Below are positions 1-20,359 of a stretch of DNA of 64,000 nucleotides, piece after piece. The stretch spans positions 2,931,501 through 2,995,500 of the forward strand of contig NZ_CP132543.1 in the NCBI RefSeq assembly GCF_030845195.1, in the 5' to 3' direction. The notes beneath the pieces were generated by a model that searched no databases, had not been told where the DNA came from, and saw nothing but the letters and a program-made list of their open reading frames with translations. The stretch's first letter is position 1. Every line of letters starts with the position of its first letter. Source of the stretch: Sanyastnella coralliicola (lineage in GTDB: Bacteria > Bacteroidota > Bacteroidia > Flavobacteriales_D > Sanyastnellaceae). A program made the translations under genes and the position numbers.

Positions 1-603
1 TTGTATTTCCCGCCATTCACCCCAGAAGAAATCCTGCACTACTACAGCGACAACGCTCAAGAAGTGCCCTTGATCCTTCGAGGAGAAATCAACCACAAGA
101 AAGTAGAAGACTCAGGGAAATTTAAAATCTTGATTATCGATAGTGGCGCAGGAGTGCTTCGACCAAGCATCCTGAAAGCCCTCGATCATATCCGTTCTCT
201 GGATGACTACCAGTTCTTTGTCTCTTCAAACCTTGAGCGCGAGCAAGACAACCTTTCATTCATTGATAAGAATGAGCTCATGGTAGACTACATCAATGAG
301 ATGGACCTCGTAATCGCTCGTGCTGGATTCAACACCATTAGTGAGTGCATTGGATTGCGCACACCAATGTTGCTTCTTGGAGAAGCGATGAATCCTGAAA
401 TGAACGAAAACATTATCAACCTGAAGAAAGGAGGCCTGGCCACCTTCATCGGGTTAGACACTTTTGAAAATAGCTTAGACACTTTCCTCCCGCATTTCAT
501 TGACCATGAGTACAAATCGATTCTACAGAACATGCAGAATCACGAAATGGCGACCAATGGAGCGGAAGTGATTGCACGTGATATCCTCGACCGCATCTTA
601 TGA
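1..603 (+). CDS. GT28/PseG-like GT-B protein, C-terminal part (5' truncated)
   Basis: The frame is open at base 1, so the N-terminus lies outside the window; the first codon (TTG) is probably not the real start. The 200 visible residues look like the C-terminal half of a GT-B fold. Residues 43-51 form a beta strand plus glycine turn, and RAGFNTISECIGLRTPMLLL at about 107-126 resembles the nucleotide-sugar-binding element of MurG, GT28 and PseG proteins. Because a NeuA-like and a NeuB-like gene follow, a PseG/NeuC-like role (removing UDP from an amino sugar) is possible, but a true glycosyltransferase is equally possible. It overlaps the next gene by 4 bases (ATGA), so the two are translationally coupled. 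Confidence 0.7.
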   Translation: MYFPPFTPEEILHYYSDNAQEVPLILRGEINHKKVEDSGKFKILIIDSGAGVLRPSILKALDHIRSLDDYQFFVSSNLEREQDNLSFIDKNELMVDYINEMDLVIARAGFNTISECIGLRTPMLLLGEAMNPEMNENIINLKKGGLATFIGLDTFENSLDTFLPHFIDHEYKSILQNMQNHEMATNGAEVIARDILDRIL

Positions 604-1181
604 GAACTATCGCTATCATACCCGCACGTGGCGGCTCGAAACGCCTAGAGAAGAAGAACATCTACCCACTTCTCGGCAAGCCACTGATTGCCTATACGAT
701 TGATGCCCTGAAAGAATGTGCGTTCGTTGATGACATCTTCGTGAGTTCAGACGACGAAGAGATTCTGAAGGTCGGAGAACAGTATGGAGCCAAGTCGTTG
801 CTTCGTCCGAAGGAGCTTGCTGATGATCACACCCCGAAAATTGTAGCAATCCGCCAAGCCGTGGAAGACCCATTGGTATCGGCCGACGGAGAAGTGGAGA
901 ACGTTATTGTAGCTCAAGCGAACAGTCCTGAACTGACGGCAGCTCATTTCAAAAGTGGCTATGACTTGATGGTCAACCACAAACTTTGGGAGGTGATGAG
1001 TGCCGACGAAAATGGCGTTCAAAATGCCGCTTTCCGAATCGTAAAGAAGCACGCTCTTTTCAATGAATTCCTCAGTGCACACTGTGGTTTCGTTGTGGCG
1101 AACAACCTCGACGTGCACACCATTGAAGACATTCAAGAACTCGAGAATTCTGACGAGTTCAAAGCACTACATACTGCCTGA
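600..1181 (+). CDS. NeuA-like cytidylyltransferase (acylneuraminate/NulO family)
   Basis: 193 residues. The N-terminal motif IPARGGSKRLEKKNI at about 7-21 is the CTP-binding signature of the CMP-sialic acid/KdsB cytidylyltransferases. Further on, VSSDDEEI and a proline-rich RPKEL stretch match the same family. Known family role: activation of a nonulosonic acid (or a related sugar) with CTP before glycosyl transfer. It is shorter than typical NeuA (about 220-230 residues) and diverges at the C-terminus, so the exact substrate cannot be read. It starts inside the stop of the upstream gene and ends 2 bases before the asparagine-synthase-like gene. The NeuB-like gene two genes downstream supports a nonulosonate pathway. 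Confidence 0.82.
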   Translation: MRTIAIIPARGGSKRLEKKNIYPLLGKPLIAYTIDALKECAFVDDIFVSSDDEEILKVGEQYGAKSLLRPKELADDHTPKIVAIRQAVEDPLVSADGEVENVIVAQANSPELTAAHFKSGYDLMVNHKLWEVMSADENGVQNAAFRIVKKHALFNEFLSAHCGFVVANNLDVHTIEDIQELENSDEFKALHTA

Positions 1182-1183
1182 CC

Positions 1184-3013
1184 ATGTGTGGAATAGCTGG
1201 ATATATCGGTAAAGAAAAACTTGATGACGGACGCATCAACGCGGCTCTTCAAACCATGGAGCAACGCGGTCCGGATGCCAACGGACATAGCACCCACGTC
1301 TTCGGCGATAGCCAAGTCAACTTGCTGCACAGTCGATTGAGCATTATTGACCTTGATCCTCGTTCAAATCAGCCATTCCATTTTGAGCATATTCATCTCG
1401 CCTTCAACGGAGAGATCTATAACTATGTTGAGCTCAAAGAGGAACTGATTACCCTAGGTCATACTTTTCAGACAGATTCAGACACAGAGGTACTGGTGAA
1501 AGCATACCTCGAATGGGGCGATCGCTGCACGGAACGCTTTGAAGGAATGTGGGCTTTTGCCTTGCTGGATGACAAGCTCGGACGTTTGATGTTGTCTCGA
1601 GATCGATTCGCAGAAAAGCCTTTCTACCTGCATGAAACCAATGACGGTGTGTACTTCGCTTCTGAAGTGAAGGCCCTGAAAGCATTGAGTAATCGCCCGT
1701 TTGAAGTGAATAGTGACCATATTCTTCGCTACATCGTGAATGGTCATAAATCACTTTACAAAACGAATGAAACCTTCTTCCATGGTGTGCGCGAATTGCC
1801 GCTTTCGCACAATGGTTTTGTCTCAGTGAATAACCCTAGCGAGGTCAAAGAATCTCCATACTGGATTCCAAAGCTGAACGAGCAGAAGATGTCAATGGAA
1901 GAAGCCATTGAAGGAACGAGAGAGCGCTTGATCAACAGCGTCAAGTTACGTATGCGTTCAGATGTACCTCTTGCATTCTGCTTGAGCGGTGGAGTCGACT
2001 CAGCGAGTTTGGTCTCTATTGCGGCGAAAGAGTTCAATGTCACTGCTCACACCTTCTCTATCATTGACAACGATCATCGTTACGATGAGTACGAGAACAT
2101 TCAAGCCACGATTGAAGACACTGGATGTGAAAGCACCAAAGTGATCCTTGATCCTAATGTAGATAATATTAGTCGCCTCGAGTCGCTGGTTCAATACCAC
2201 GACGCGCCGGTGGCAACGATTTCATATTTCGTCCACAGTTTCCTGTCAGAGCAGATTGCGAAGAATGGGTTCAAGATTTCCATTTCGGGAACTGCTGCAG
2301 ACGAGCTGTTCACCGGATACTACGACCACTTCGTACTTCACATGTACGAGATGAGAAATCATCCGGAATTCGCGCGATTCAAAGCGGAATGGGAAAAATA
2401 CCCACTTCAGTTTGTTCGCCACCCTGACTTCAGAAAGTTCGATCTGTACTTCGACAACCCAGATAAGCGTGACCACATTTATCTGAACAACGAACTCTTC
2501 CGAAGCCTTTTGAATAAAGACTTCCATGAGCCGTTCACGGAGACAAAGTACTGTGATAGCCTCCTTCGCAACCGCATGATGAATGAGCTCTTCAATGAAG
2601 TGGTTCGTGTCATCTTGCACGAAGACGATTTGAACAGTATGAAGTACTCTTTGGAGAATAGAAGTCCGTTCCTTGACAAAGGGCTTTTTGAGTGGGCTTA
2701 CAGCATCCCAAGTGAGCTATTAATCAATGAAGGGTACAACAAATACATCCTCCGTTCTTCGATGAAGGGAATTCTCAATGATCAGGTTCGCTTGAGTCGT
2801 GAGAAGAAAGGGTTCAATGCTTCGATCAACTCGATCTTTGACTTCAAAAACCCTGAGCATCGTGCTTACTTCCTTGATGATTCAGCGATCTATCAATACT
2901 TCGACCGATCGAAGATGGAAGAAATGCTCAACAAAGAAGAGTACCCAAACAGCTACAAGAAATTCCTTTTCAACTTCATAAATGCCAAGATCTTTCTTGA
3001 GCAGCATAACTAA
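1184..3013 (+). CDS. asnB: Asparagine synthase (glutamine-hydrolysing)-like amidotransferase
   Basis: 609 residues with the two-domain AsnB layout. The mature N-terminus begins MCGIAGYIG, giving Cys2 as the glutaminase nucleophile; FNGEIYN at about 74-80 belongs to the same Ntn domain. The synthetase domain carries the PP-loop SGGVDS at about 268-273 and the ENRSPFLD motif toward the C-terminus. The reaction in the family is ATP-dependent amidation of a carboxylate with ammonia from glutamine. In polysaccharide operons such proteins (for example WbpS of Pseudomonas aeruginosa) amidate hexuronic acids, so a sugar substrate is more likely here than free aspartate. It lies between neuA-like and neuB-like genes. 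Confidence 0.88.
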   Translation: MCGIAGYIGKEKLDDGRINAALQTMEQRGPDANGHSTHVFGDSQVNLLHSRLSIIDLDPRSNQPFHFEHIHLAFNGEIYNYVELKEELITLGHTFQTDSDTEVLVKAYLEWGDRCTERFEGMWAFALLDDKLGRLMLSRDRFAEKPFYLHETNDGVYFASEVKALKALSNRPFEVNSDHILRYIVNGHKSLYKTNETFFHGVRELPLSHNGFVSVNNPSEVKESPYWIPKLNEQKMSMEEAIEGTRERLINSVKLRMRSDVPLAFCLSGGVDSASLVSIAAKEFNVTAHTFSIIDNDHRYDEYENIQATIEDTGCESTKVILDPNVDNISRLESLVQYHDAPVATISYFVHSFLSEQIAKNGFKISISGTAADELFTGYYDHFVLHMYEMRNHPEFARFKAEWEKYPLQFVRHPDFRKFDLYFDNPDKRDHIYLNNELFRSLLNKDFHEPFTETKYCDSLLRNRMMNELFNEVVRVILHEDDLNSMKYSLENRSPFLDKGLFEWAYSIPSELLINEGYNKYILRSSMKGILNDQVRLSREKKGFNASINSIFDFKNPEHRAYFLDDSAIYQYFDRSKMEEMLNKEEYPNSYKKFLFNFINAKIFLEQHN

Positions 3014-3031: not shown

Positions 3032-3739
3032 ATGTTCATCATTTCAGAAATATCACCTCAGTTTAGCGGAGATCTTGCTACCGCGGAACAAATGATTCTT
3101 CAATCAAAGCTTGGTGGAGCCGAAGCTGTTAAAGTTCAGCTATACGATCCGGAGCAATTCAACAAGCCGAAGAGCCATGCTATGGACTTCGAGACATTGA
3201 AGCACCTGCGCGATTTCGGAGATCACCATGGAATTCCAGTATTCGCTACACCGTTTGCTTCGAAATTCCTTGACTGGTGTGTTGAGCTAGACCTGAAATA
3301 CATGAAGGTGGCTGCGCGTATGCACGTTGGATTCCCAGAGTTGACGCGTGATATTATGTCGTTAAAGAAGCCAACCTTTGTTTCTATTCCTGCTGATATG
3401 CCGCAAGAAGACGTAGACAAGATTGAAGTGGTTGATTACGCAACTTACCTCTACTGCGTCGTGAAATACCCAACATTGGTTGAAGAGTTCGAAATGCCTG
3501 ATTTCGCAAACAGTCGTTTCCACGGTATTTCTGACCACACGCTAGGGAATAGCGCGGCCCTTTTCGCCTCAGCACACGGAGCGAAATACCTCGAAAAGCA
3601 CTTCACACTGCGTCAATCATTCCAGCGCACAGGCGAGCTTGCTCACCTTTGCTCGATGGACATGAACGACCTTCAGCAGATTAAAAATACAGCAACGGAG
3701 TTTGAGACGCTTCGTCGCGTAATGGGAATGGATGCGTAA
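3032..3739 (+). CDS. NeuB-family sialic/nonulosonic acid synthase-like TIM barrel, no SAF domain
   Basis: 235 residues. The start MFIISEISPQFSGDLATAEQ, then GAEAVKVQLYD, ISDHTLGN and KYLEKHFTL, follow the order of conserved strands in NeuB, SpsE and PseI synthases, which condense phosphoenolpyruvate with an amino sugar. Full NeuB proteins are about 335-350 residues and end in an antifreeze-like SAF domain that closes the active site; here the protein stops just after the barrel and no separate SAF ORF follows. The segment after EKHFTL reads RQSFQRTGELAHLCSMD, where classical enzymes have a DxxxxxxDH-type segment. Either a divergent synthase or a related barrel enzyme. It overlaps the next gene by 8 bases. 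Confidence 0.75.
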   Translation: MFIISEISPQFSGDLATAEQMILQSKLGGAEAVKVQLYDPEQFNKPKSHAMDFETLKHLRDFGDHHGIPVFATPFASKFLDWCVELDLKYMKVAARMHVGFPELTRDIMSLKKPTFVSIPADMPQEDVDKIEVVDYATYLYCVVKYPTLVEEFEMPDFANSRFHGISDHTLGNSAALFASAHGAKYLEKHFTLRQSFQRTGELAHLCSMDMNDLQQIKNTATEFETLRRVMGMDA

Positions 3740-5045
3740 AGAGCTCAAAGAAGCCATAGCGTCTTATCGTTCTCTGAAAAGCGCCAAAGAAGGCAGCCGC
3801 GAATGGCATGCCTGGAAGTGCATGAATGAGAATGTCACTTACCGATTGGATCAAGCGGCGAGCAATCAAGCCACCATTGGTCTTCGGGTGCTCATTCGAG
3901 TGCTTCGTAAAATGCGTTCTGGCACGGATGCCTTTCACACATTGAGAGGAGAGCCGCAATTGGCCATCTTAGAGTCTGCCTTTGTATTCGAAGAATTAGA
4001 ATTCGAGTACGTTAAAAAACAAGCACAACCGCCGGGCGTGTTCTTCAGTCAAGAAGATCTACCAGCAGCATTCAAAGGACAGCAATTGATCCCTTTCATT
4101 CTGTTTGCGCTTCCGATTGTGTTGTCTTGTTTCTTCTCTTCGGCAAACCGAGCGAACAAAGCGATGCATATTGCTTTTGTAGCGGAGAATGCGGCTTTGC
4201 TGCATTTGGTCCGAAGCCAGAAGATCAAGCGAATCTTTGATTTCGCTCCTTACCTCATCGACCACAACTGGAGTTACCTTCTACTTGAAAACGAACTTGA
4301 CGACTTCACGAAGTTGCCAAGTCCGGGACCTTTGAGCACCCATCATGGCGTGCTGTATTGCCACAGCCTTTTGTTGAGTAGCGCTTACCAAAAGGAAGAA
4401 ATCAAGGTCTTGAAAGAGGTAAAGTACACTCAGGTAGATATGTGGGTTCCAGAGTATGCCTTCACGTACATTGATCGCTACCTCGAGACCTTACCTGAGC
4501 CTGAGCCAATGACCATTGGATACTACTCTCATGGTGGTTGGTTGCGCAGAGATGAAGGTCATACAGATGACGGATTGAATATTCCAGAGGCTGAAGAACA
4601 ATTGCTGAAAGACCTCGCCAAATTCACTGCTGAACATGATGGTTGGAAGGTGATGATCTTCCCCCACCCTCGTGAAAAAAAGCCTGAATTGGTGGAGAAA
4701 ACCAGGGAGTTCTATCAGCAGTTCTTTCCAGATGGCAACTTTGCTTTAGCGGGCCCAGACGTTCGTACTTCCATGAGTTTTGAGCATGTGGATATCGCCG
4801 CGGCGGCATTCAGCACCATCCTTTATGAGCGCCTATTCTGTGGCTACAAAACCCTGATCGGGAACTACGGCATGGAGCATTTCCCAATGAAAGGCTCCAC
4901 ACTGGATGGGATCTGTTTTAACTCGGGAGAACAACTCTCTAAGAAACTACTTGAGCTCGAATCGGTCACTCGAAACGAGTTCTTTGAACGATACGGACTT
5001 GAAGCCTACCGCTTCGATGCCTATCCATATTTTGTGCAAGCATGA
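3732..5045 (+). CDS. Unrecognised polysaccharide-locus protein, possible GT-B transferase
   Basis: 437 residues with no family I can name firmly. The first 100 residues are charged and helical. About residues 115-132 are hydrophobic (LIPFILFALPIVLSCFF), then the chain becomes globular. In the C-terminal half, TIGYYSHGGWLRR, KVMIFPHPREKKPE and DIAAAAFSTILYERLFCGYK are reminiscent of the second Rossmann domain of CDP-glycerol/capsule polysaccharide transferases (HP motif, then S-x-x-x-E near the donor site). No signal peptide is seen. It sits between the NeuB-like gene (8-base overlap) and hisH (4-base ATGA overlap), so it belongs to the operon and may act on the same sugar. A role in transfer of a CMP- or UDP-activated sugar is inference. 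Confidence 0.7.
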   Translation: MRKELKEAIASYRSLKSAKEGSREWHAWKCMNENVTYRLDQAASNQATIGLRVLIRVLRKMRSGTDAFHTLRGEPQLAILESAFVFEELEFEYVKKQAQPPGVFFSQEDLPAAFKGQQLIPFILFALPIVLSCFFSSANRANKAMHIAFVAENAALLHLVRSQKIKRIFDFAPYLIDHNWSYLLLENELDDFTKLPSPGPLSTHHGVLYCHSLLLSSAYQKEEIKVLKEVKYTQVDMWVPEYAFTYIDRYLETLPEPEPMTIGYYSHGGWLRRDEGHTDDGLNIPEAEEQLLKDLAKFTAEHDGWKVMIFPHPREKKPELVEKTREFYQQFFPDGNFALAGPDVRTSMSFEHVDIAAAAFSTILYERLFCGYKTLIGNYGMEHFPMKGSTLDGICFNSGEQLSKKLLELESVTRNEFFERYGLEAYRFDAYPYFVQA

Positions 5046-5650
5046 TCGCGATTATTGACTACGGCGTAGGTAACCTTGCCTCGGTAAGGAATATGATCAA
5101 GAAAGCTGGCGGAAAGGCTAAGATTTCTTCTGATCCTGAAGTTCTCGCTAGCGCGGAAAAGCTCATCCTTCCAGGGGTGGGCGCTTTTGGAGTTGGAATG
5201 GCTAATCTTCGGGAGCGAGGATTAGACACTCTTATCAAGGAACGCGCAGCGGCTGGAGTTAAGATCCTAGGCATTTGCCTTGGGGCACAGTTGCTAACGG
5301 ATTACAGCGAAGAGAACGATTGTGAAGGGTTAGGATTGATTCCTGCCAAGACTATTCGTTTCAATGTAGCAGATCAAGGTTTGAAAGTACCTCACATGGG
5401 GTGGAACAACATCCAGGTTTCTCAATCAGACCATCCTCTACTTCAAAATATTCAAGCCAACCCGCGCTATTATTTCGTGCACAGCTATTACATGAAATGT
5501 GATGACCAAGCAGATGAACTGTGCAGCTGCGATTACGGACATTCATTCTCGGCTGGAATTGCAAAAGGACATGTTGCCGGTATGCAATTTCACCCTGAGA
5601 AAAGCCACGTATTTGGCCTGAAGGTGATGGAGAACTTTTTAAGCTGGTAA
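5042..5650 (+). CDS. hisH: HisH-type glutamine amidotransferase subunit (sugar amidation module)
   Basis: 202 residues, the usual HisH length. Class I glutaminase features are intact: oxyanion strand PGVGAFG at about 44-50, nucleophile Cys79 in GICLGAQ, and the His184/Glu186 pair in HPEKS. It hydrolyses glutamine and passes ammonia to a HisF-type barrel. The next two genes are a HisF homologue and a WbpG-type N-acetyl sugar amidotransferase, the same trio as in Pseudomonas aeruginosa O-antigen clusters, and no other histidine-biosynthesis gene is nearby. The likely job is therefore ammonia supply for sugar amidation, not histidine synthesis. A copy of the 13-bp CGCTAGCGCGGAA word lies inside the gene at 5146. 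Confidence 0.9.
   Translation: MIAIIDYGVGNLASVRNMIKKAGGKAKISSDPEVLASAEKLILPGVGAFGVGMANLRERGLDTLIKERAAAGVKILGICLGAQLLTDYSEENDCEGLGLIPAKTIRFNVADQGLKVPHMGWNNIQVSQSDHPLLQNIQANPRYYFVHSYYMKCDDQADELCSCDYGHSFSAGIAKGHVAGMQFHPEKSHVFGLKVMENFLSW
5146..5158 (+). repeat. 13-bp word CGCTAGCGCGGAA
   Basis: Exact copy in hisH; codons read L-A-S-A-E. Confidence 0.85.
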
Positions 5651-5651
5651 T

Positions 5652-6410
5652 ATGCAGAGAGCACGGATCATACCCATACTGACTGTAGATAACGGCAAGC
5701 TCGTGAAGACGGTGAAGTTCAAAAAACCGAACTACATCGGAGACCCGATCAACGCCATCAAGATCTTCAACGATAAGATGATCGATGAGATCGTTATCCT
5801 TGACATTACTGCTTCGAAGCAAGGACGAAAACCGAACACCGACCTCATTTACGAAATGGCCAGTGAGTGTTTTTCGCCGCTAGGCTATGGTGGAGGAATC
5901 ACATCTTTCGAAGAAGCCAAAAAGGTATTTGATCAAGGGGTTGAGAAGGTGATTATTAATTCAGCTATCGCTGGGAACGCTTCGCTTCTGCAAGAAATCG
6001 CTGATGCCTACGGCAGTCAAAGTGTAGTCGTGAGTTTGGACGTGAAGAAACCTCTGTTCGGCGGAATGCGTCCATGTTTCCGATCGGCAAGTGACGTGAT
6101 TAAGGAAGATATTGTTGCCTTTGCTCAACGCATGGAGTCAGCAGGAGCAGGAGAGCTGATTGTACACAACACTGATCGCGACGGCACCTTTAGCGGACTA
6201 GATCGCGAGCTGACTAAATCGGTGGCTAGTGCGGTCGGAATTCCGGTAATTGCTTGTGGCGGAGCACACTCCGTAGAAGACATGAATGAAACCATTTCTG
6301 CAACCGGAGCTTCAGCTGCAGCCGCAGGAAGCATCTTCGTTTACAAAGACAGAAATCCGAAATCAATCCTAATCTCCTACCCTACTCCAGAAGACATAAT
6401 CTCACGTTGA
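5652..6410 (+). CDS. hisF: HisF-like barrel, ammonia channel partner of HisH/WbpG
   Basis: 252 residues, same length and register as HisF. Conserved elements include LDITASK at about 50-56, GYGGGIT at 78-84, IINSAIAGN at 101-109 and HNTDRDGT at about 172-179. In true HisF cyclases the catalytic pair is Asp11 and Asp130. Here residue 11 is Thr (IPILTVDNG) while residue 130 is still Asp (VVVSLDVKK). Loss of Asp11 argues against imidazole glycerol phosphate cyclase activity and fits a barrel kept as an ammonia tunnel from HisH. It begins 1 base after the hisH stop and is followed after 70 bases by the WbpG-like gene. Confidence 0.9.
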   Translation: MQRARIIPILTVDNGKLVKTVKFKKPNYIGDPINAIKIFNDKMIDEIVILDITASKQGRKPNTDLIYEMASECFSPLGYGGGITSFEEAKKVFDQGVEKVIINSAIAGNASLLQEIADAYGSQSVVVSLDVKKPLFGGMRPCFRSASDVIKEDIVAFAQRMESAGAGELIVHNTDRDGTFSGLDRELTKSVASAVGIPVIACGGAHSVEDMNETISATGASAAAAGSIFVYKDRNPKSILISYPTPEDIISR

Positions 6411-6480: not shown

Positions 6481-7668
6481 ATGACCACCCTCAACAACAC
6501 CACCCAAGACGTACGTGTATGTACGAAAACGGTAATGGATAACATTGCTGACCCAGACATCACCTTTGATGAAAATGGGGTCTGCAATTACTTCTACCAA
6601 TACCAAGATCGTGTCGAGAAATTCTTCGTTGGAGGAGAAGAAGGGCAACGTCAAATGGAAGAGGTGTTCGCCAAGATCCGCGAAGAAGGGAAAAACAAGA
6701 AATACGATTGCATTACAGGAGTCAGTGGAGGTGTTGATAGCACCTACATGGTATACCTCTGCAAGAAGTATGGATTACGTCCGCTAGTTGTTCACCTAGA
6801 CAATGGGTGGAACTCTGAAATTGCCAATCAGAACATCAATAATATCATCGATAAGTGTGGCTTTGATCTTCACACCCATGTCATCGACTGGGAGGAGTTC
6901 AGAGATCTGCAGTTATCATTTTTGAAAGCATCTGTCATTGACCTTGAGTTAACTTCAGATCACGCCATCTTCGCAGTGATCTATGGATTGGCTCAAAAGC
7001 ATGGCATTACTTACATGTTGAACGGATTCAACATTACTACAGAAGGCATTCTTCCTTCAGCGTGGCGATGGTTCAAGTATGACTGGTTGAATATCCGTTC
7101 GATTCAAAAGCAGTTCGGATCAAAGAAACTGAAGACCTTCCCTCATGTAAGCTTCGGTAAGAAGACCTACTATGAATTCGTGAAGAAGATTCAGACGGTG
7201 ATGCCGCTGAATTACATTGATTACAACAAGGAAGAAGCAAAAGAACTTATCTCTCGCGAACTCGGTTGGCGTGACTACGGAGGTAAGCACTTCGAGAGTA
7301 TCATCACTCGCTTCTACCAAGGATATATTCTTCCGGAGAAGTTTGGGGTAGATAAGCGCAAAGCACACTTATCTACGCTGATTGCTTCCGGACAAATGAC
7401 GCGAGACGAAGCGCTTGAAGAGCTCAAGCAACCCATCTATGACGCAGATATGCTCGAGGAAGACAAAGAATTCGTTCTGAAGAAATTCGGATTTAGCGAA
7501 GCTGAATTTGAAGCCGTCATGAACGCGCCGATAAAGGCACACACAGACTATCCTAGCTACATCACAAAGCACTATAAATACCACGAACAGATCATGAAGT
7601 CAATCTCTCCAGCAACGCGTCTGGTGAAGAAAGCACTTGGGATCCGTCGAGAAAATAAGTCGTACTGA
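6481..7668 (+). CDS. N-acetyl sugar amidotransferase (WbpG/PseA/LegX family)
   Basis: 395 residues. The PP-loop SGGVDSTYMVY at about 82-92 activates the sugar N-acyl group with ATP; VVHLDNGWNSE and LTSDHAIFA are typical of the family. With HisH and HisF supplying ammonia, these enzymes convert an acetamido group into an acetamidino group on amino sugars of O-antigens or flagellin glycans. The N-terminal region normally has two CxxC pairs; here they read CTKT (14-17) and CNYF (35-38), so each pair has kept only its first Cys. The gene is preceded by a 70-base gap, unusual in this operon, and is followed by wbpB after 1 base. Confidence 0.9.
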   Translation: MTTLNNTTQDVRVCTKTVMDNIADPDITFDENGVCNYFYQYQDRVEKFFVGGEEGQRQMEEVFAKIREEGKNKKYDCITGVSGGVDSTYMVYLCKKYGLRPLVVHLDNGWNSEIANQNINNIIDKCGFDLHTHVIDWEEFRDLQLSFLKASVIDLELTSDHAIFAVIYGLAQKHGITYMLNGFNITTEGILPSAWRWFKYDWLNIRSIQKQFGSKKLKTFPHVSFGKKTYYEFVKKIQTVMPLNYIDYNKEEAKELISRELGWRDYGGKHFESIITRFYQGYILPEKFGVDKRKAHLSTLIASGQMTRDEALEELKQPIYDADMLEEDKEFVLKKFGFSEAEFEAVMNAPIKAHTDYPSYITKHYKYHEQIMKSISPATRLVKKALGIRRENKSY

Positions 7669-7669
7669 C

Positions 7670-8686
7670 ATGAAAAAGACCCGTTTTGCCATTGTAGGAT
7701 GCGGAAGCATTGGTCGCCGCCACATCGCGGTGATCGACGCTGAACCCAATGCGGAGATCGTAGCGATCTGTGATATCAAGGAAGAAGCTGCTCGCGAGCA
7801 ATCTGATCTTTATGACAACCTTCCTTTCTACACAGATTTCACGGAAATGCTGGCAAACATCGAAGCTGATGTGATTAACATTGCCACACCTCACGCGTTG
7901 CATGCTGACATGTCGATTGAAGCACTCCGTGCTGGTTTTGACGTCTTAGTTGAGAAGCCAATGGCCCTCACAACGGAAGACTGTAAGCGCATGAATGCCG
8001 TATCAAAGGAAACCGGTCAGCAGCTGTGGGTCGTGAAGCAAAACCGTCACAACGTTCCTGTTCGATTGGCCAAAGATGCGATCGACAAAGGAATGCTCGG
8101 TAAGATCTTCATGATCAAGTGTGACATCCTATGGAATCGTTACCAAGGGTACTACGATGACTCTCCGTGGCGAGGTGTGAAAGAAGAAGAAGGCGGGGCG
8201 CTATTCACTCAAGCAAGTCACTTCATTGATCTATTAATCTGGTGGTGTGGTGATGTAGTGAAAGCTCAGTGTCACGCTGAAACTCAGAATCATAATATTG
8301 AAACAGAAGACAGCGGTGTAGCCATCTTGAACTTCGCTAACGGAGCCATTGGCTCATTGGTTTGGACAACTTGTGTCTACAACAAAAACTACGAAGGGTC
8401 AGTGACCATCGTAGGAGAGCGAGGTACCATCAAGATCGGTGGCAAGTACCTCAACAAGATTGAATTCTGGGATGTAGAAGGATACCCTCTTCCAGAAGGG
8501 ATCGAATTCTCAGATAAGCCGAATGCCTACGGTAAGTACCAGGGAACAAGCTCAAATCACGACAAGGTGGTGAAGGCATTGATCGCCTACTTAAACCGTG
8601 AAGGAAATGAAACAGTAGATGGTTTCGAAGGAATGAAATCAATTGACGCCATCGAACACATTTACAACGCAATGGCCAATGGCTGA
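7670..8686 (+). CDS. Gfo/Idh/MocA oxidoreductase, WbpB-like
   Basis: 338 residues from ATG 7670, which lies 1 base after the upstream stop; a longer in-frame TTG start at 7637 would overlap the amidotransferase and adds no conserved sequence. The Rossmann motif GCGSIG is at about 10-15 and the family motif EKPMAL at about 95-100. WbpB homologues oxidise C3 of UDP-GlcNAc-uronic acid, giving the 3-keto sugar that a WbpE transaminase aminates. The acetyltransferase and aminotransferase genes that complete this sequence follow directly, which is the main reason for preferring the WbpB role over other Gfo/Idh/MocA activities. Confidence 0.87.
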   Translation: MKKTRFAIVGCGSIGRRHIAVIDAEPNAEIVAICDIKEEAAREQSDLYDNLPFYTDFTEMLANIEADVINIATPHALHADMSIEALRAGFDVLVEKPMALTTEDCKRMNAVSKETGQQLWVVKQNRHNVPVRLAKDAIDKGMLGKIFMIKCDILWNRYQGYYDDSPWRGVKEEEGGALFTQASHFIDLLIWWCGDVVKAQCHAETQNHNIETEDSGVAILNFANGAIGSLVWTTCVYNKNYEGSVTIVGERGTIKIGGKYLNKIEFWDVEGYPLPEGIEFSDKPNAYGKYQGTSSNHDKVVKALIAYLNREGNETVDGFEGMKSIDAIEHIYNAMANG

Positions 8687-9137
8687 ACCGAAGAAATACC
8701 AAGCACAAATCCGCGACGTCAATTTCGGTGAGAATGTCATCGTTGTTGAACCTTGCAACCTCTATGAATGCAGCATCGGCAGCAACAGCTTTGTTGGGCC
8801 CTTTGTTGAAATTCAAAAAGGAGTCGTTGTAGGGGATCGCAGCAAAGTGCAGTCGCATACCTTCATTTGCGAATTGGTAACGATCGGTGATGATTGCTTT
8901 ATCGGACATGGAGTCATGTTTATCAATGACTTGTTCAGTGATGGAGGACCGGCCGGAGGCGATCAAACGAAATGGAAACAAACCTTCATCGGGAATAAGG
9001 TCTCGATTGGAAGCAATGCCACCATTCTCCCTGTCACTATTTGCGACGAAGTCGTGATTGGCGCAGGTAGCGTAGTGACAAAAGATATCACGGAGCCTGG
9101 CGTCTACGCTGGGAATCCAGCAAAAAAACTTCGGTAA
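8679..9137 (+). CDS. Hexapeptide N-acetyltransferase, WbpD-like
   Basis: 152 residues from ATG 8679, overlapping the upstream stop by 8 bases. The chain is a left-handed beta-helix with repeats such as IGSNSFVGPFVEI, IGDDCFIGHGVMF, IGSNATILP and IGAGSVVTKDI, ending in the usual YAGNPAKKLR. Homologues such as WbpD acetylate the 3-amino group of UDP-2-acetamido-3-amino-glucuronate. Its place between the WbpB-like and WbpE-like genes supports that substrate. Hexapeptide acetyltransferases vary widely in acceptor, so the assignment leans on context. Confidence 0.88.
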   Translation: MAEPKKYQAQIRDVNFGENVIVVEPCNLYECSIGSNSFVGPFVEIQKGVVVGDRSKVQSHTFICELVTIGDDCFIGHGVMFINDLFSDGGPAGGDQTKWKQTFIGNKVSIGSNATILPVTICDEVVIGAGSVVTKDITEPGVYAGNPAKKLR

Positions 9138-10234
9138 TGAACGTACCTTTTGTTGACCTCCATGCGCAGTACTTGCGCTACAAAGATGAATTCGATTCCG
9201 CGATAGCGAATGTCATCAGCGAAACCGCATTCATCAGCGGTAAACACGCGAAAGCCTTTGAAGCCAACTTCTCTGAGTACGCTCAAGTAGGGCACACAGT
9301 AAGCTGCGCGAACGGAACTGACTCCCTTGAAATCCTCTTGGATGTTCTTGGTGTAGGACCAGGTGATGAGGTAATCATCCCAGCGCTATCATGGATTTCG
9401 ACTGCTGAGGTTATTGGCACAAGAGGTGCTACACCGGTATTCGTTGACATAGACGAAACCTATACGATCAACGTAGACTTGATCGAAGAAAAAATCACTC
9501 CTCAAACAAGAGGTATCATGCCTGTGCACCTATATGGATGTCCGGCGAACATGCCTCGAATCATGGAGATCGCGGAAAAGCACAACCTATTCGTCATCGA
9601 AGACAGTGCGCAGGCGCATGGTGCTGAATGGGGAGGTCAACGCATTGCTACATTTGGAACCGCAGGTAGCTTTAGCTTCTACCCAGGAAAAAACTTGGGT
9701 GCGTACGGAGACGCCGGTGGAATGGTGACCGACAGCGAAGAGATCGCGAATAAAGCACGCATGATCGCTAACCACGGTCAGCCAAAGAAACACGAGCACA
9801 TCATGGAAGGCCGCAATTCCCGAATGGACGGAATGCAAGCAGCCATTCTAAATGTGAAGCTCCCATACATTGAGACATGGACGGAAGAGCGCATTGCTCA
9901 TGCCGCTCGTTACACTGAGTTACTGAAAGAAAGCAGCGTTCAAACGCCAATCGTTCCTGAGGGCGCTCGTCATGTCTTCCACCTTTATGTAGTGCAGCAT
10001 GATGACCGCGATGGTTTGAGACAACATCTCGCGGATCATGGCATCGGTAATGCGATCCACTACCCTACGCCAATGCCTTTCATGCCGTGTTACGCGCATC
10101 TGGGCTATACTGAAGCAGATTTCCCTGTAGCTACGGCGGCATGTAAACGCATTGTTTCGCTTCCGATGTATCCGGAAATGACTAATGAGCATATTGATCG
10201 CGTTGTAGAAACCATCAATTCTTATGGCGGATAA
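9137..10234 (+). CDS. DegT/DnrJ/EryC1/StrS aminotransferase, WbpE-like
   Basis: 365 residues, normal for PLP-dependent sugar aminotransferases. Conserved features are NGTDSLEI at about 60-67, IEDSAQAHGAEW at 164-175, and the PLP lysine Lys185 in FYPGKNLGAYGDAG. It would transaminate the 3-keto group made by the WbpB-like enzyme, using glutamate. The start ATG overlaps the upstream stop by 1 base (TAATG). WbpB, WbpD and WbpE together lead to a UDP-2,3-diacetamido-2,3-dideoxy-hexuronate, the substrate whose N-acetyl could then be amidated by the upstream WbpG/HisH/HisF trio. It contains one CGCTATCGCGGAA word at 9196 on the reverse strand. Confidence 0.9.
   Translation: MNVPFVDLHAQYLRYKDEFDSAIANVISETAFISGKHAKAFEANFSEYAQVGHTVSCANGTDSLEILLDVLGVGPGDEVIIPALSWISTAEVIGTRGATPVFVDIDETYTINVDLIEEKITPQTRGIMPVHLYGCPANMPRIMEIAEKHNLFVIEDSAQAHGAEWGGQRIATFGTAGSFSFYPGKNLGAYGDAGGMVTDSEEIANKARMIANHGQPKKHEHIMEGRNSRMDGMQAAILNVKLPYIETWTEERIAHAARYTELLKESSVQTPIVPEGARHVFHLYVVQHDDRDGLRQHLADHGIGNAIHYPTPMPFMPCYAHLGYTEADFPVATAACKRIVSLPMYPEMTNEHIDRVVETINSYGG
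9196..9208 (-). repeat. 13-bp word, T variant CGCTATCGCGGAA
   Basis: Reverse-strand copy (TTCCGCGATAGCG on the + strand) in the WbpE-like gene; codons read D-S-A-I-A-N. Confidence 0.8.
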
Positions 10235-17546: not shown

Positions 17547-18504
17547 ACCACCCGAGATGTCAAACATTCTTGTAACTGGAGGAGCAGGTTTTATCGCAAG
17601 CTCCATGGCCGCGAGGCTTGCTGAAGACCCAGCGAATACTGTGGTCATCGTAGACAACTTCGTGACCGGAAAGCCAGAGAATATTCCAAACTCGCCACAT
17701 GGCAATATTCACTTCGTGAAATGTGATGTCAACAATTACCGCGACATCTCAGAAGTGTTCTTCTCATGGCGATTTGACATGGTCTTTCACTACGCCGCCT
17801 TGGTAGGGGTTCAACGAACTTTGAACAACCCAGTGAAAGTGCTTGACGACATTGATGGAATCAGAAACATCCTGAATCTCTGCAAAAACGGTCGTGTTAA
17901 ACGCGTCCTTTACAGTTCATCTTCGGAAGTTTATGGAGAGCCTTTTGAAATCCCTCAAAATGAGCACACCACACCACTAAACTCAAGGCTACCTTATGCC
18001 ATTGTCAAGAATGCAGGGGAAGCATGGCTCAAAGCCTACGAGAAGGAATACGGCCTATCATACAGCATCTTCCGATTCTTCAATACCTACGGACCACACC
18101 AAAGCGATGACTTCGTAATCTCGAAGTTCATCAAAGCCGCTTTGGCTAATGAAGATATAACCATCTATGGCGATGGCATGCAAACAAGAACGTTTTGCTA
18201 CATCGACGATAACGTAGAGGCATGTTACCGCATCGCGCATAGCGACGACTTCAGAAACGAAGTGGTCAATATTGGAAGCGACCACGAAATCACGATACTC
18301 GAACTTGCCCAACGAATTATCCGCTTGAGCCGCAGCCAATCACAGATCGTTCACCTTCCAGCCTTGAAAGAAGGAGACATGAGCCGTCGCAAACCTGACA
18401 TTTCACTCATGCGTTCCATCTTGAAAGATGACCTCACAGAATTGGATCAAGGCCTATTAAGAGTTATTGATGCTTTTAACCCAGTAGCGAATGTGCGGAA
18501 TTAA
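17539..18504 (+). CDS. NAD-dependent nucleotide-sugar epimerase/dehydratase (extended SDR)
   Basis: About 321 residues from ATG 17539 (8-base overlap with the upstream stop); ATG 17557, giving MSNILVTGGAGF, is an equally plausible start. GGAGFIAS near the N-terminus is the NAD-binding glycine motif, SSSSEVYGE precedes the YxxxK catalytic pair in LPYAIVKNAGE, and FFNTYGPHQ and TRTFCYIDD are family landmarks. The pattern matches UDP-glucuronate decarboxylase or 4-epimerase/4,6-dehydratase enzymes; the exact reaction is not decided. It supplies a nucleotide sugar for this polysaccharide. It overlaps the next gene by 14 bases. Confidence 0.87.
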   Translation: MTKPPEMSNILVTGGAGFIASSMAARLAEDPANTVVIVDNFVTGKPENIPNSPHGNIHFVKCDVNNYRDISEVFFSWRFDMVFHYAALVGVQRTLNNPVKVLDDIDGIRNILNLCKNGRVKRVLYSSSSEVYGEPFEIPQNEHTTPLNSRLPYAIVKNAGEAWLKAYEKEYGLSYSIFRFFNTYGPHQSDDFVISKFIKAALANEDITIYGDGMQTRTFCYIDDNVEACYRIAHSDDFRNEVVNIGSDHEITILELAQRIIRLSRSQSQIVHLPALKEGDMSRRKPDISLMRSILKDDLTELDQGLLRVIDAFNPVANVRN

Positions 18505-20359
18505 CGGGATTGTAGACCTCAAACATGTCGCAGACCCAGCGGCAACGATTAAGGTCATGAATGACCGACTGGCACATCGAGGGCCAGATGCAGAAGGCAG
18601 TTTCGTCAATGACACCGTGGCGCTTGGCCACAGACGCCTCAGCATTATTGATCTCAGCGACGCCGGTAACCAACCTTTCCATTCATTCGACGGAAAACAG
18701 ACCCTCGTTTTCAACGGAGAGATCTACAACTACATCGAATTAAAGGCCAAATTGGCTGACTACCCGTTCAAGACGGGTTCTGATACTGAAGTGCTCATAG
18801 CAGCGTACCGCAAGTGGGGAAAAGACTGCTTGCTCCAGTTAAATGGAATGTTCGCTTTTGCGCTTTGGGACGAAGACCAACGGTCACTTCTCATCGCACG
18901 AGACCGAATGGGGATCAAACCACTTTACTTTGCTTGGCAAGGCAATGGATTGGTATTCTCCAGTGAAATGCGCGCCCTTCTTTCGAGCAACCTTGTCAAA
19001 AAGAAAGTCGATTCGTTGGCTCTGGTTGACTACTTGCGCTATCAAACGGTTCACGCTCCAAGAACAATGATCGAAGGAGTACAGATGCTCGAACCAGGCA
19101 CCTACATGCTGATCACTGATAGTGAGACCATCAATGAGCATTACTGGCACTTGGCTGCCTCTTCAAAGCAAATCATTGATGGCCGCGATCGCATTCTTAA
19201 GAACATTAATGAGTCATTACACCGCAGCGTTGAAATGCGCATGCGAGCGGATGTCCCTTTTGGTGCCTTTCTTTCTGGTGGAATCGACTCTAGCGCGATC
19301 GTGGGATTGATGGCTGGAGTAACAGACCACCCGGTGAGTACGTTCAGTGTGACTTTCGATGAGGAAGAATTCTCTGAAGGGGTATACGCAGAAATGATCG
19401 CTAAGAAGTTCAATACGCGACATACAGAAATCCGATTAAAGGCCGACGACTTCCTCCAGATGATTCCAGATGCCCTCCAGGCGATGGATCACCCGAGCGG
19501 AGATGGACCAAATACTTATGTCGTAAGTAAGGTGACCAAAGAATCAGGAATCACCATGGCACTCTCAGGATTGGGTGGTGATGAATTATTCGCTGGGTAC
19601 GGCATCTTTACCCAAGCAACTGCCCTGCTCGACAAACGTTGGGTGATGAGCTTTCCGAAGTTCTTACGTTCCTTCGCCGGACGTGGACTTCAACTAGCGA
19701 AACCGTCGATTGCGAGTCGTAAGACGGCATCCATTCTGAAAGAAGATTACCTAGATCTCGAATACTTTTATCCGTATTCAAGACAGGCGCTTGATGAAAA
19801 GCAAGTTGGAGCCTTGGTGAAAGGCAAACTCCCAAAGAACGCGGTACACCAGTTCCTGCTCGAAGAAATGGCGCAAGATATGCCAGCCTTCAGCTTGAAT
19901 TACCTCAGTAAAATCTCATACGCAGAGATCAGAACCTACATGCAAAATGTACTTCTTCGTGACTCAGATCAGATGAGTATGGCACATGCACTCGAAGTTC
20001 GTGTACCATTCCTCGATCACGAGTTGGTAGAGTATGTCATGGGGGTTGCTGACCCTGAAAAGTATCCGCATACACCGAAGAAATTACTGGATGATTCTCT
20101 AGGTACTCTCTTGCCAAGAGAAATCGTCGATCGTCCTAAGATGGGCTTCACCCTTCCTTGGGAACAGTGGATGAAAGGAACACTTCGCTCTTTCTGCGAA
20201 GAAAAATTGCAACGTCTTGGTGAGCGCGAGTACTTCAACGCTCGTGGAATTGACCAAACGTGGAGATCGTTCTTGAACGGCAGCAAGTTTATCACTTGGT
20301 CACGTGTTTGGCACCTCGTAGTACTTGAAAACTGGCTACAAGAGCACGGCATTGAGTGA
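18491..20359 (+). CDS. asnB: Asparagine synthase (glutamine-hydrolysing), second copy
   Basis: 622 residues with N-terminal Cys2 (MCGINGIVDL), FNGEIYNYIEL at about 74-84, and PP-loop SGGIDSS at about 262-268; VRVPFLDHELVEY and DRPKMGFTLPW are C-terminal family motifs. It is closer to the canonical biosynthetic AsnB pattern than the first copy at 1184. Homologues are common in exopolysaccharide loci (AsnB/WbpS type) and are linked to amidation of uronic acids or to unknown sugar modification. A 14-base overlap with the epimerase gene and an 8-base overlap with the next glycosyltransferase tie it to the operon. Confidence 0.9.
   Translation: MCGINGIVDLKHVADPAATIKVMNDRLAHRGPDAEGSFVNDTVALGHRRLSIIDLSDAGNQPFHSFDGKQTLVFNGEIYNYIELKAKLADYPFKTGSDTEVLIAAYRKWGKDCLLQLNGMFAFALWDEDQRSLLIARDRMGIKPLYFAWQGNGLVFSSEMRALLSSNLVKKKVDSLALVDYLRYQTVHAPRTMIEGVQMLEPGTYMLITDSETINEHYWHLAASSKQIIDGRDRILKNINESLHRSVEMRMRADVPFGAFLSGGIDSSAIVGLMAGVTDHPVSTFSVTFDEEEFSEGVYAEMIAKKFNTRHTEIRLKADDFLQMIPDALQAMDHPSGDGPNTYVVSKVTKESGITMALSGLGGDELFAGYGIFTQATALLDKRWVMSFPKFLRSFAGRGLQLAKPSIASRKTASILKEDYLDLEYFYPYSRQALDEKQVGALVKGKLPKNAVHQFLLEEMAQDMPAFSLNYLSKISYAEIRTYMQNVLLRDSDQMSMAHALEVRVPFLDHELVEYVMGVADPEKYPHTPKKLLDDSLGTLLPREIVDRPKMGFTLPWEQWMKGTLRSFCEEKLQRLGEREYFNARGIDQTWRSFLNGSKFITWSRVWHLVVLENWLQEHGIE

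Follow-up and report, generated by a model that had tools for sequence, protein, structure and literature searches.

Loss of one catalytic aspartate in HisF paralogues linked to the sugar amidotransferase WbuX: a Thr11 case from Sanyastnella coralliicola

Results

The window analysed here, a stretch of 64,000 nucleotides of the S. coralliicola genome, contains three adjoining genes for a HisH-type glutaminase, a HisF-type barrel protein and a WbuX/WbpG-type N-acetyl-sugar amidotransferase (Table 1). A single base separates the end of the HisH gene from the start of the HisF-type gene. Residues Cys79, His184 and Glu186 of the HisH protein occupy the columns of the catalytic triad, which bears out the full catalytic set that had been noted in a first-pass annotation of the sequence, and the PP-loop of WbuX (SGGVDS) is intact. 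Two of the four zinc-site cysteines of this WbuX are replaced by Thr and Phe (CTKT and CNYF versus two CxxC motifs). Among 299 aligned WbuX rows, some of which are the same gene fetched twice, 243 have all four cysteines and 35 fully readable ones have an incomplete set; since several of these 35 rows come from other phyla, loss of zinc-site cysteines is a recurring variant of WbuX.

The order of the sugar-modification genes downstream resembles, as we take it, that of WbpB/D/E in the wbp cluster of P. aeruginosa, and the encoded oxidoreductase, acyltransferase and aminotransferase are compatible with the synthesis of a diamino sugar. A similar gene set is described for an exopolysaccharide locus of Sphingomonas in the accessible part of that report (PMC11340318). 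Just upstream lie genes for a short PseF-like and a short NeuB/PseI-like protein, which may or may not still act on a nonulosonate, and two asparagine-synthase-type amidotransferases are encoded in the same polysaccharide region. The host genome, a single contig of 4.1 Mb, has one copy of WbuX and carries a true HisF far from the window, which exceeds the TIGR00735 cut-off, has Asp at both 11 and 130 and adjoins a HisA-like match.

Table 1. Features of the window and of the other loci discussed in the text (window positions unless a locus or contig is named)
Feature	Position	Strand	Detail
Short PseF-like cytidylyltransferase	600..1181		109.2 bits (cut-off 205.7)
Asparagine-synthase-type amidotransferase	1184..3013		
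Short NeuB/PseI-like protein	3032..3739		90.6 bits (cut-off 340.25)
HisH-type glutaminase (HisH2)	5042..5650	+	TIGR01855 230.5 bits (cut-off 105.4)
HisF2/WbuZ-type barrel	5652..6410	+	ATG to stop, 252 aa
Codon 11, Thr, site of the lost catalytic acid	5682..5684	+	numbered from ATG 5652 and aligned register
Codon 130, Asp, catalytic-base position retained	6039..6041	+	numbered from ATG 5652 and aligned register
WbuX/WbpG-type N-acetyl-sugar amidotransferase	6481..7668	+	TIGR03573 313.1 bits (cut-off 203.2)
Gfo/Idh/MocA oxidoreductase, hexapeptide acyltransferase, DegT-type aminotransferase	7637..10234	+	
Asparagine-synthase-type amidotransferase	18491..20359		
True HisF of the same genome	G000:C1:1290096-1290845		319.2 bits
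HisF-WbuX fusion	L273:13506-15599		open frame 698 aa, Pseudomonadota genome
HisF-WbuX fusion	L275:505-3018		open frame 838 aa, Pseudomonadota genome
WbuX with group 1 glycosyltransferase domain	L155:6991-9390	-	
WbuX with group 1 glycosyltransferase domain	L183:6961-9372	-	
WbuX with family 2 glycosyltransferase domain	L178:6085-8151		
Weak WbuX-like domain	L301:5933-7774	-	TIGR03573 147.7 bits, below cut-off
Split HisF2 gene	L180:6274-7033		
HisF2-type, Gly11	L197:6291-7106		
HisF2-type, Gly11	L198:8361-9146		

The HisF-type protein scores 315.9 bits against the model of the AglZ/HisF2 family of acetamidino modification proteins (NF038364; cut-off 310) and remains below the cut-offs of both WbuZ (TIGR03572; 269.3 versus 299.7 bits) and the HisF cyclase (TIGR00735; 185.6 versus 294.55 bits). 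The company of HisH and of an N-acetyl-sugar amidotransferase within a saccharide locus is likewise what is expected of the AglZ/HisF2 family. The phmmer alignment to solved HisF structures runs without gaps from residue 4 to past residue 130 and places Thr11 of the window protein on HisF residue 11 and its Asp130 on Asp130. At position 11 the aligned structures have Asp in HisF-LUCA (4evz) and Asn in 1gpw, the latter presumably an engineered D11N exchange. After about residue 140 the numbering of the window protein runs one ahead of that of T. maritima HisF (Glu168 = 167, Asp177 = 176, Cys202 = 201). AlphaFold2 models the protein as a HisF barrel (mean pLDDT 93.4), which matches 1h5y with a Z of 32.3 (rmsd 2.1, 238 aligned residues) and 1gpw with a Z of 31.2. 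The open reading frame, the gap-free alignment and this model confirm the earlier identification of a HisF homologue in which Thr replaces Asp11, and the exact register and the retained Asp130 that went with it stood up equally.

The catalytic pair of the HisF cyclase is thus incomplete in the window protein, with Thr11 beside Asp130. Position 20 in loop 1 is Thr instead of Gly, and Lys19, Phe23 and Asp177 are present. The residues Arg5, Glu46, Lys99 and Glu167 of HisF we take to form its ammonia gate, and all four have their counterparts in the window protein (Arg5, Glu46, Lys99 and Glu168), which hence combines the fold and the gate of an ammonia-conducting barrel. The closest relative, L032 from the same family, is 67% identical and has Thr11 too. 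A register error was rejected in view of the alignment free of gaps through residue 130, and a chance or sequencing slip at codon 11 was rejected as Thr11 recurs in L032 and Asp11 is found in none of the 157 readable rows of the group described next. We consider it supported that the window protein is a sugar-amidation paralogue of HisF and not an enzyme of the histidine pathway.

Proteins of this type, here HisF2 proper, were assigned by best fit among three models and comprise 158 rows. Members of this group as a rule lack Asp11, and Thr is a minority state: 147 rows have Leu11, 3 Thr, 2 Gly, 2 Gln and 1 Ser, all together with Asp130; the remaining rows are one Gln11/Glu130 protein and two fragments of one broken gene. 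Asp11 occurs in none of the 157 rows readable at that site, and Asp130 is present in 156 of 157. At L180 the HisF2 gene, beside WbuX and HisH, is split into two overlapping frames. The two HisF2-type proteins with Gly11 at L197 and L198 sit on long branches, and the HisH domains beside them are part of open frames of more than 1000 aa; the one scanned, at L197, also bears glycosyltransferase domains.

The best loci, at least 80, from a scan of named genomes of many phyla, archaea included, were selected by HisF alone. HisF, HisH and WbuX are found together in 78 of the 80 best HisF2 loci, one being without WbuX and one without HisH in the stretch. Only five rows from these and the same-phylum loci have Asp11, and no HisF2 is among them: four are true HisF and the fifth (L098, Glu130) belongs to another lineage. 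Of 296 genomes of the same phylum, 27 have a protein above the NF038364 cut-off, and no score falls between 315 and 245 bits. Of the 49 HisF2-bearing genomes searched across many phyla, 42 also carry a HisF above the cut-off; the other seven, of unstated completeness, include archaeal assemblies.

WbuX (TIGR03573) was in addition sampled without selecting on HisF, in 198 Bacteroidia, 398 Pseudomonadota, 121 Campylobacterota and 151 Chloroflexota genomes, and 140 regions around WbuX were chosen from among the matches listed. HisF is present in 50 of 80 regions from Bacteroidia, 32 of 40 from Pseudomonadota, 7 of 18 from Campylobacterota and both of those from Chloroflexota, where the regions without HisF include, pooled with the rest, some that end at contig ends. 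These regions yield 92 unique HisF open reading frames (copies recorded under other loci excluded), two of which are fragments of a broken gene. Not one of the other 90 has both aspartates. Asp11 is lost and Asp130 kept in 73 (60 Leu, 4 Thr, 3 Ile, 2 Gly and one each of Asn, Gln, Val and Tyr), Asp11 is kept in 15 (Glu130 in 13, Gln130 in 2), and there is one Glu/Glu and one Gln/Glu protein.

Pooling all loci and counting HisF as WbuX-linked when WbuX lies within 8 kb gives 209 rows, again without any Asp/Asp pair: 185 have Asp130 and a residue other than Asp at 11, with nine letters in use there, 18 are Asp/Glu, 2 Asp/Gln, 1 Glu/Glu and 1 Gln/Glu, and 2 are the fragments of the broken L180 gene. 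When these fragments are dropped, both aspartates are found in 0 of 207 readable WbuX-linked HisF versus all 31 HisF read that exceed the HisF cut-off, a count that describes related rows and not 207 independent events. Exactly one aspartate is present in every one of the 207 rows except for one Gln11/Glu130 and one Glu11/Glu130 protein; Asp11 accounts for 20 of the rows and Glu11 for one. Three more HisF from the phylum (L034-L036), compared with the 31, are Asp/Asp as well, and together they make up the true-HisF group of 34 rows, from which the Asp/Asp filter removed none. Left out of this group were L218 from Latescibacterota (Asp/Asp, over the HisF cut-off, without WbuX) and the partial row L226 (Asp/Asp), and the HisF2-type rows L013, L023, L028 and L063, which have no WbuX in their stretch, were not counted as linked. 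The groups compared below are defined by residues, namely the 185 rows that combine Asp130 with a non-Asp residue at 11, the 21 rows whose residue 11 is Asp or Glu and whose residue 130 is Glu or Gln, and true HisF; L205 (Gln11/Glu130) is inside the 207 and outside all three.

The first-pass annotation had proposed residue 11 as a simple marker to tell sugar-amidation HisF from histidine HisF, to be given up if other WbpG-linked HisF proteins kept Asp11. Comparison of WbpG-linked with histidine HisF at this site upholds the marker in HisF2 proper (157 of 157 rows) but not in general, as 20 of the 207 WbuX-linked HisF, all of one lineage, do keep Asp11. Following the WbuX-anchored sampling we therefore rejected Asp11 as a universal marker. 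Judged by the sequences in hand, a better marker would be that Asp11 and Asp130 are not both present, and this holds.

Twenty-one WbuX-linked rows, among them L230, L231, L232, L234, L236, L257, L259, L271 and L306, make up the lineage in which Asp11 (once Glu) is paired with Glu or Gln at position 130. Three of its proteins were scanned and lie below the HisF, WbuZ and HisF2 cut-offs alike. Phe23 is changed to Leu in 21 of 21 rows and Asp177 to Glu in 90%, and Gly20 is retained. Since Glu130 remains acidic, loss of the cyclase is less certain for this lineage, which might still be active; the changes at Phe23 and Asp177 would support the loss. At L207-L214 two HisF types occur a few kilobases apart within one region, each pair joining an Asp11-less type to the Asp11/Glu130 type or to a second Asp11-less type.

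A second, careful tree of HisF was built from 74 sampled rows, without HisA and with columns 11 and 130 removed; the long or odd rows L205, L272, L143 and L254 and the window copy L002 were excluded deliberately. In this unrooted tree the Asp11-keeping lineage, represented by 13 of its 21 rows, is a single clade (100/100), and HisF2 proper forms a clade of its own (100/100). The split that sets true HisF and the Glu130 lineage against the Asp11-less groups has support of 99/98, and true HisF make up one side of a branch at 80/93. All 21 rows of the Asp11-keeping lineage also form one clade in a HisA-rooted tree from which columns 11 and 130 had likewise been removed. The placement of the two lineages indicates that loss of Asp11 and change of Asp130 were different events. 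The root given by HisA, which puts HisF and the sister lineage inside the Asp11-less groups, was discarded on account of the long HisA rows and a long-branch warning. Recruitment to WbuX may have happened once or twice.

A tree of the WbuX partners, made by a quick method to which the long-branch warning applies, splits exactly by HisF type, with two changes for three types over 90 rows, the minimum possible; partners of HisF2 proper were drawn at random (45 of 158) and supply 44 rows of this tree, the window included. Because linked genes travel together, the matching tree is support for contact and not proof of it. In two Pseudomonadota genomes HisF and WbuX are fused in one open frame (Table 1). 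The WbuX part of both fusions is over the TIGR03573 cut-off, the HisF part has Leu11 and Asp130, and a separate HisH is encoded nearby. We regard these frames as the strongest sign that barrel and amidotransferase would work as one unit. HisF is not always needed by WbuX, given that many WbuX regions are without it, and WbuYZ is reportedly non-essential. WbuX is also found fused to a group 1 glycosyltransferase domain (L155, L183) and to a family 2 glycosyltransferase domain (L178), in each case with no HisF in the stretch, and the weak WbuX-like domain at L301, which follows a class-II glutamine amidotransferase domain, is perhaps part of an asparagine-synthase relative.

The gate residues Arg5 and Glu46 are kept in all of the 185 and 21 WbuX-linked rows, as they are in the 34 true HisF. 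Glu168 is found in 205 of 205 WbuX-linked rows read and Lys99 in 204 of 206, the other two having Arg, and the 34 true HisF behave likewise. The Cys/His/Glu triad of the HisH partner is complete in 179 of 179 cases for the 185-row group and in 20 of 20 for the Glu130 lineage; beside true HisF it is found in 20 of 22, the two others being unaligned at Cys. Within the 185-row group the GGG and GG columns of the phosphate loops are conserved to 96-100%, Lys19 to 93% and Asp177 to 86% (Glu in 13%), and position 20 is Thr in 70%, Ser in 18% and Gly in 10%. This conservation of the phosphate pocket, together with that of Asp130, exceeds the needs of a bare pipe.

In the cyclase reaction Asp11 acts as general acid and Asp130 as general base according to the available excerpt of one account (PMC11350729), and both are essential according to the accessible part of another (PMC5919458). 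The former excerpt also gives the cost of loop-1 exchanges in T. maritima HisF, with kcat falling from 2.4 to 0.0055 per second in F23A, about 440-fold, and to 0.022 per second in G20A, about 110-fold (PMC11350729). In the WbuX-linked proteins the loop-1 losses split by group, Gly20 being lost mostly in that of the window and Phe23 in the Glu130 lineage. In a chance estimate with random loss over 60 HisF-invariant positions, 11 lost in one group and 9 in the other, 9% of draws hit a catalytic aspartate in both groups, and about 2% spared all four gate sites in addition. With only two lineages and some 2% of random draws giving the same picture, the pattern of catalytic and gate sites is suggestive, not overwhelming.

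Discussion

The role of HisF2 proteins in acetamidino modification of sugars is already known (NCBIfam NF038364, TIGR03572), and the window protein joins this known family; of interest here are the two-residue rule and the second lineage. Like AglZ/HisF2 the window protein scores over the family cut-off, has WbuX and HisH as neighbours and is without Asp11, but it differs from the usual members in having Thr in place of Leu at position 11 and from WbuZ in its score below the TIGR03572 cut-off. With T. maritima HisF (1thf, 1gpw) it shares fold, register, Asp130, Lys19, gate and HisH partner, whereas the absence of Asp11 and Gly20, the score below the HisF cut-off and the WbuX neighbour set it apart. 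It has the HisH and WbuX neighbours and the gate in common with the Asp11/Glu130 lineage, and one of the catalytic pair is changed in each. In that lineage, however, Asp11 and Gly20 remain, the changed residues are Asp130, Phe23 and mostly Asp177, and the position in the tree is closer to true HisF.

The adjoining gene encodes the same enzyme as WbpG, WbuX and LpNASAT (TIGR03573; PDB 8WEX), with the PP-loop kept, but differs from LpNASAT, as far as the available text of that study goes, in the two zinc-site cysteines replaced by Thr and Phe (PMC10607449). The same available text makes no mention of HisF or HisH (PMC10607449). In a literature search that had most subscription journals outside its range, we found no paper reporting that these paralogues have lost Asp11 or Asp130, and none on HisF-WbuX fusions, at which this search was not aimed alone.

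Our preferred reading, to which we assign a probability of roughly 0.7, is that the cyclase-dead barrel serves as partner of HisH and as ammonia conduit for WbuX. The lost acid, the intact HisH, the adjoining WbuX, the kept gate and the fusions make the conduit a good reading. By this mechanism the HisF2 paralogue would have given up cyclisation of PRFAR; HisH2, bound by HisF2, would hydrolyse glutamine and free ammonia, which would pass through the barrel to WbuX; and WbuX would, together with ATP, turn the N-acetyl group of the sugar into an acetamidino group during surface-polysaccharide synthesis. Such PP-loop chemistry, with ATP converted to AMP, is proposed for LpNASAT in the accessible portion of its description (PMC10607449). 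Loss of one catalytic aspartate, Asp11 in the present case, would be the sign that the barrel has been freed from its task as a cyclase, with gate and glutaminase still under full constraint. Family, neighbourhood, residue states, co-inheritance and fusions are matters of observation; we infer that the barrel is inactive as a cyclase, that WbuX docks on the former active-site face and that ammonia is transferred. The barrel reduced to a conduit, as the window protein had been read at the outset, gains from the assignment as a sugar-amidation paralogue, the intact HisH, the adjoining WbuX, the gate and the fusions, and has to part with Asp11 as a general marker.

But pocket residues are largely kept, and this leaves room for a ligand-sensing role. 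HisF2 could be mainly a switch that takes up a sugar nucleotide, or a portion of WbuX, at its pocket and Asp130 and thereby activates HisH, as PRFAR does in the histidine pathway; the free ammonia would then diffuse to WbuX. Asp130 in 156 of 157 readable HisF2-proper rows, the phosphate-loop columns at 96-100%, Asp177 at 86% and Lys19 at 93% in the 185-row group, and the retention of exactly one aspartate in all but two of 207 rows would fit such a switch. However, the gate is constrained as strongly as the pocket, and direct contact is indicated by the fusions and by the strict joint inheritance of HisF and WbuX; we consider the switch unlikely as the main function, though it is compatible with the conduit and both could be true together. 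Considerably less probable, in our view, is that the barrel catalyses another reaction with Asp130 alone, on a sugar nucleotide or other phosphorylated substrate. The nearly invariant Asp130 of HisF2 proper and the mostly kept pocket would be in line with this, but position 11 shows nine letters among the rows with Asp130, and no separate reaction is needed given the ATP-dependent chemistry proposed for WbuX in the text available (PMC10607449). Moreover, it is Asp130 that is changed in the sister lineage, where Asp11 stays, so there is no catalytic aspartate that every one of these proteins shares.

The HisF fold (Z about 32) and the kept Lys19, Phe23, Asp130 and Asp177 might suggest that the window protein still acts as a HisF cyclase, at full or low activity, and backs up histidine synthesis, yet it lacks the residue that the accessible parts of the two accounts give as the general acid (PMC11350729) and as essential (PMC5919458). 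Gly20 is lost too, the score of 185.6 bits falls far short of 294.55, and a real HisF lies elsewhere in the genome; on these grounds a working second HisF was rejected, and the chance of a backup cyclase of any kind is very small. Smaller still is the chance that the gene is decaying and Thr11 the product of drift. The two replaced zinc-site cysteines of the adjoining WbuX could be taken as a sign of decay, but this cysteine change is common to other WbuX with an intact PP-loop, and Asp11 is absent from every HisF2-proper row read. A pseudogene was rejected in view of the intact open reading frame, of Thr11 conserved in the 67% identical L032, and of the kept gate and Asp130.

HisFH is said to have been proposed earlier as a source of ammonia for WbpG/WbuX. 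The conduit reading can be widened to the statement that HisH-HisF is a portable ammonia-delivery module, which was turned over to sugar amidation and lost its cyclase activity by two residue-loss routes: in HisF2 and related groups Asp11 would have gone, in most cases along with Gly20, and in the Glu130 lineage Asp130, along with Phe23 and mostly Asp176, each lineage with a WbuX clade of its own and with the barrel fused to WbuX in some Pseudomonadota. For this statement as a whole we see about even odds. By the two-residue test, each of the 207 readable sugar-amidation HisF is told apart from the 31 HisF above the HisF cut-off, and together with the fusions and the co-inheritance of the partners this test makes the older ammonia-feeding proposal directly testable. 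If true, this would be a natural case of an enzyme barrel that was kept for its channel after its own chemistry had been lost.
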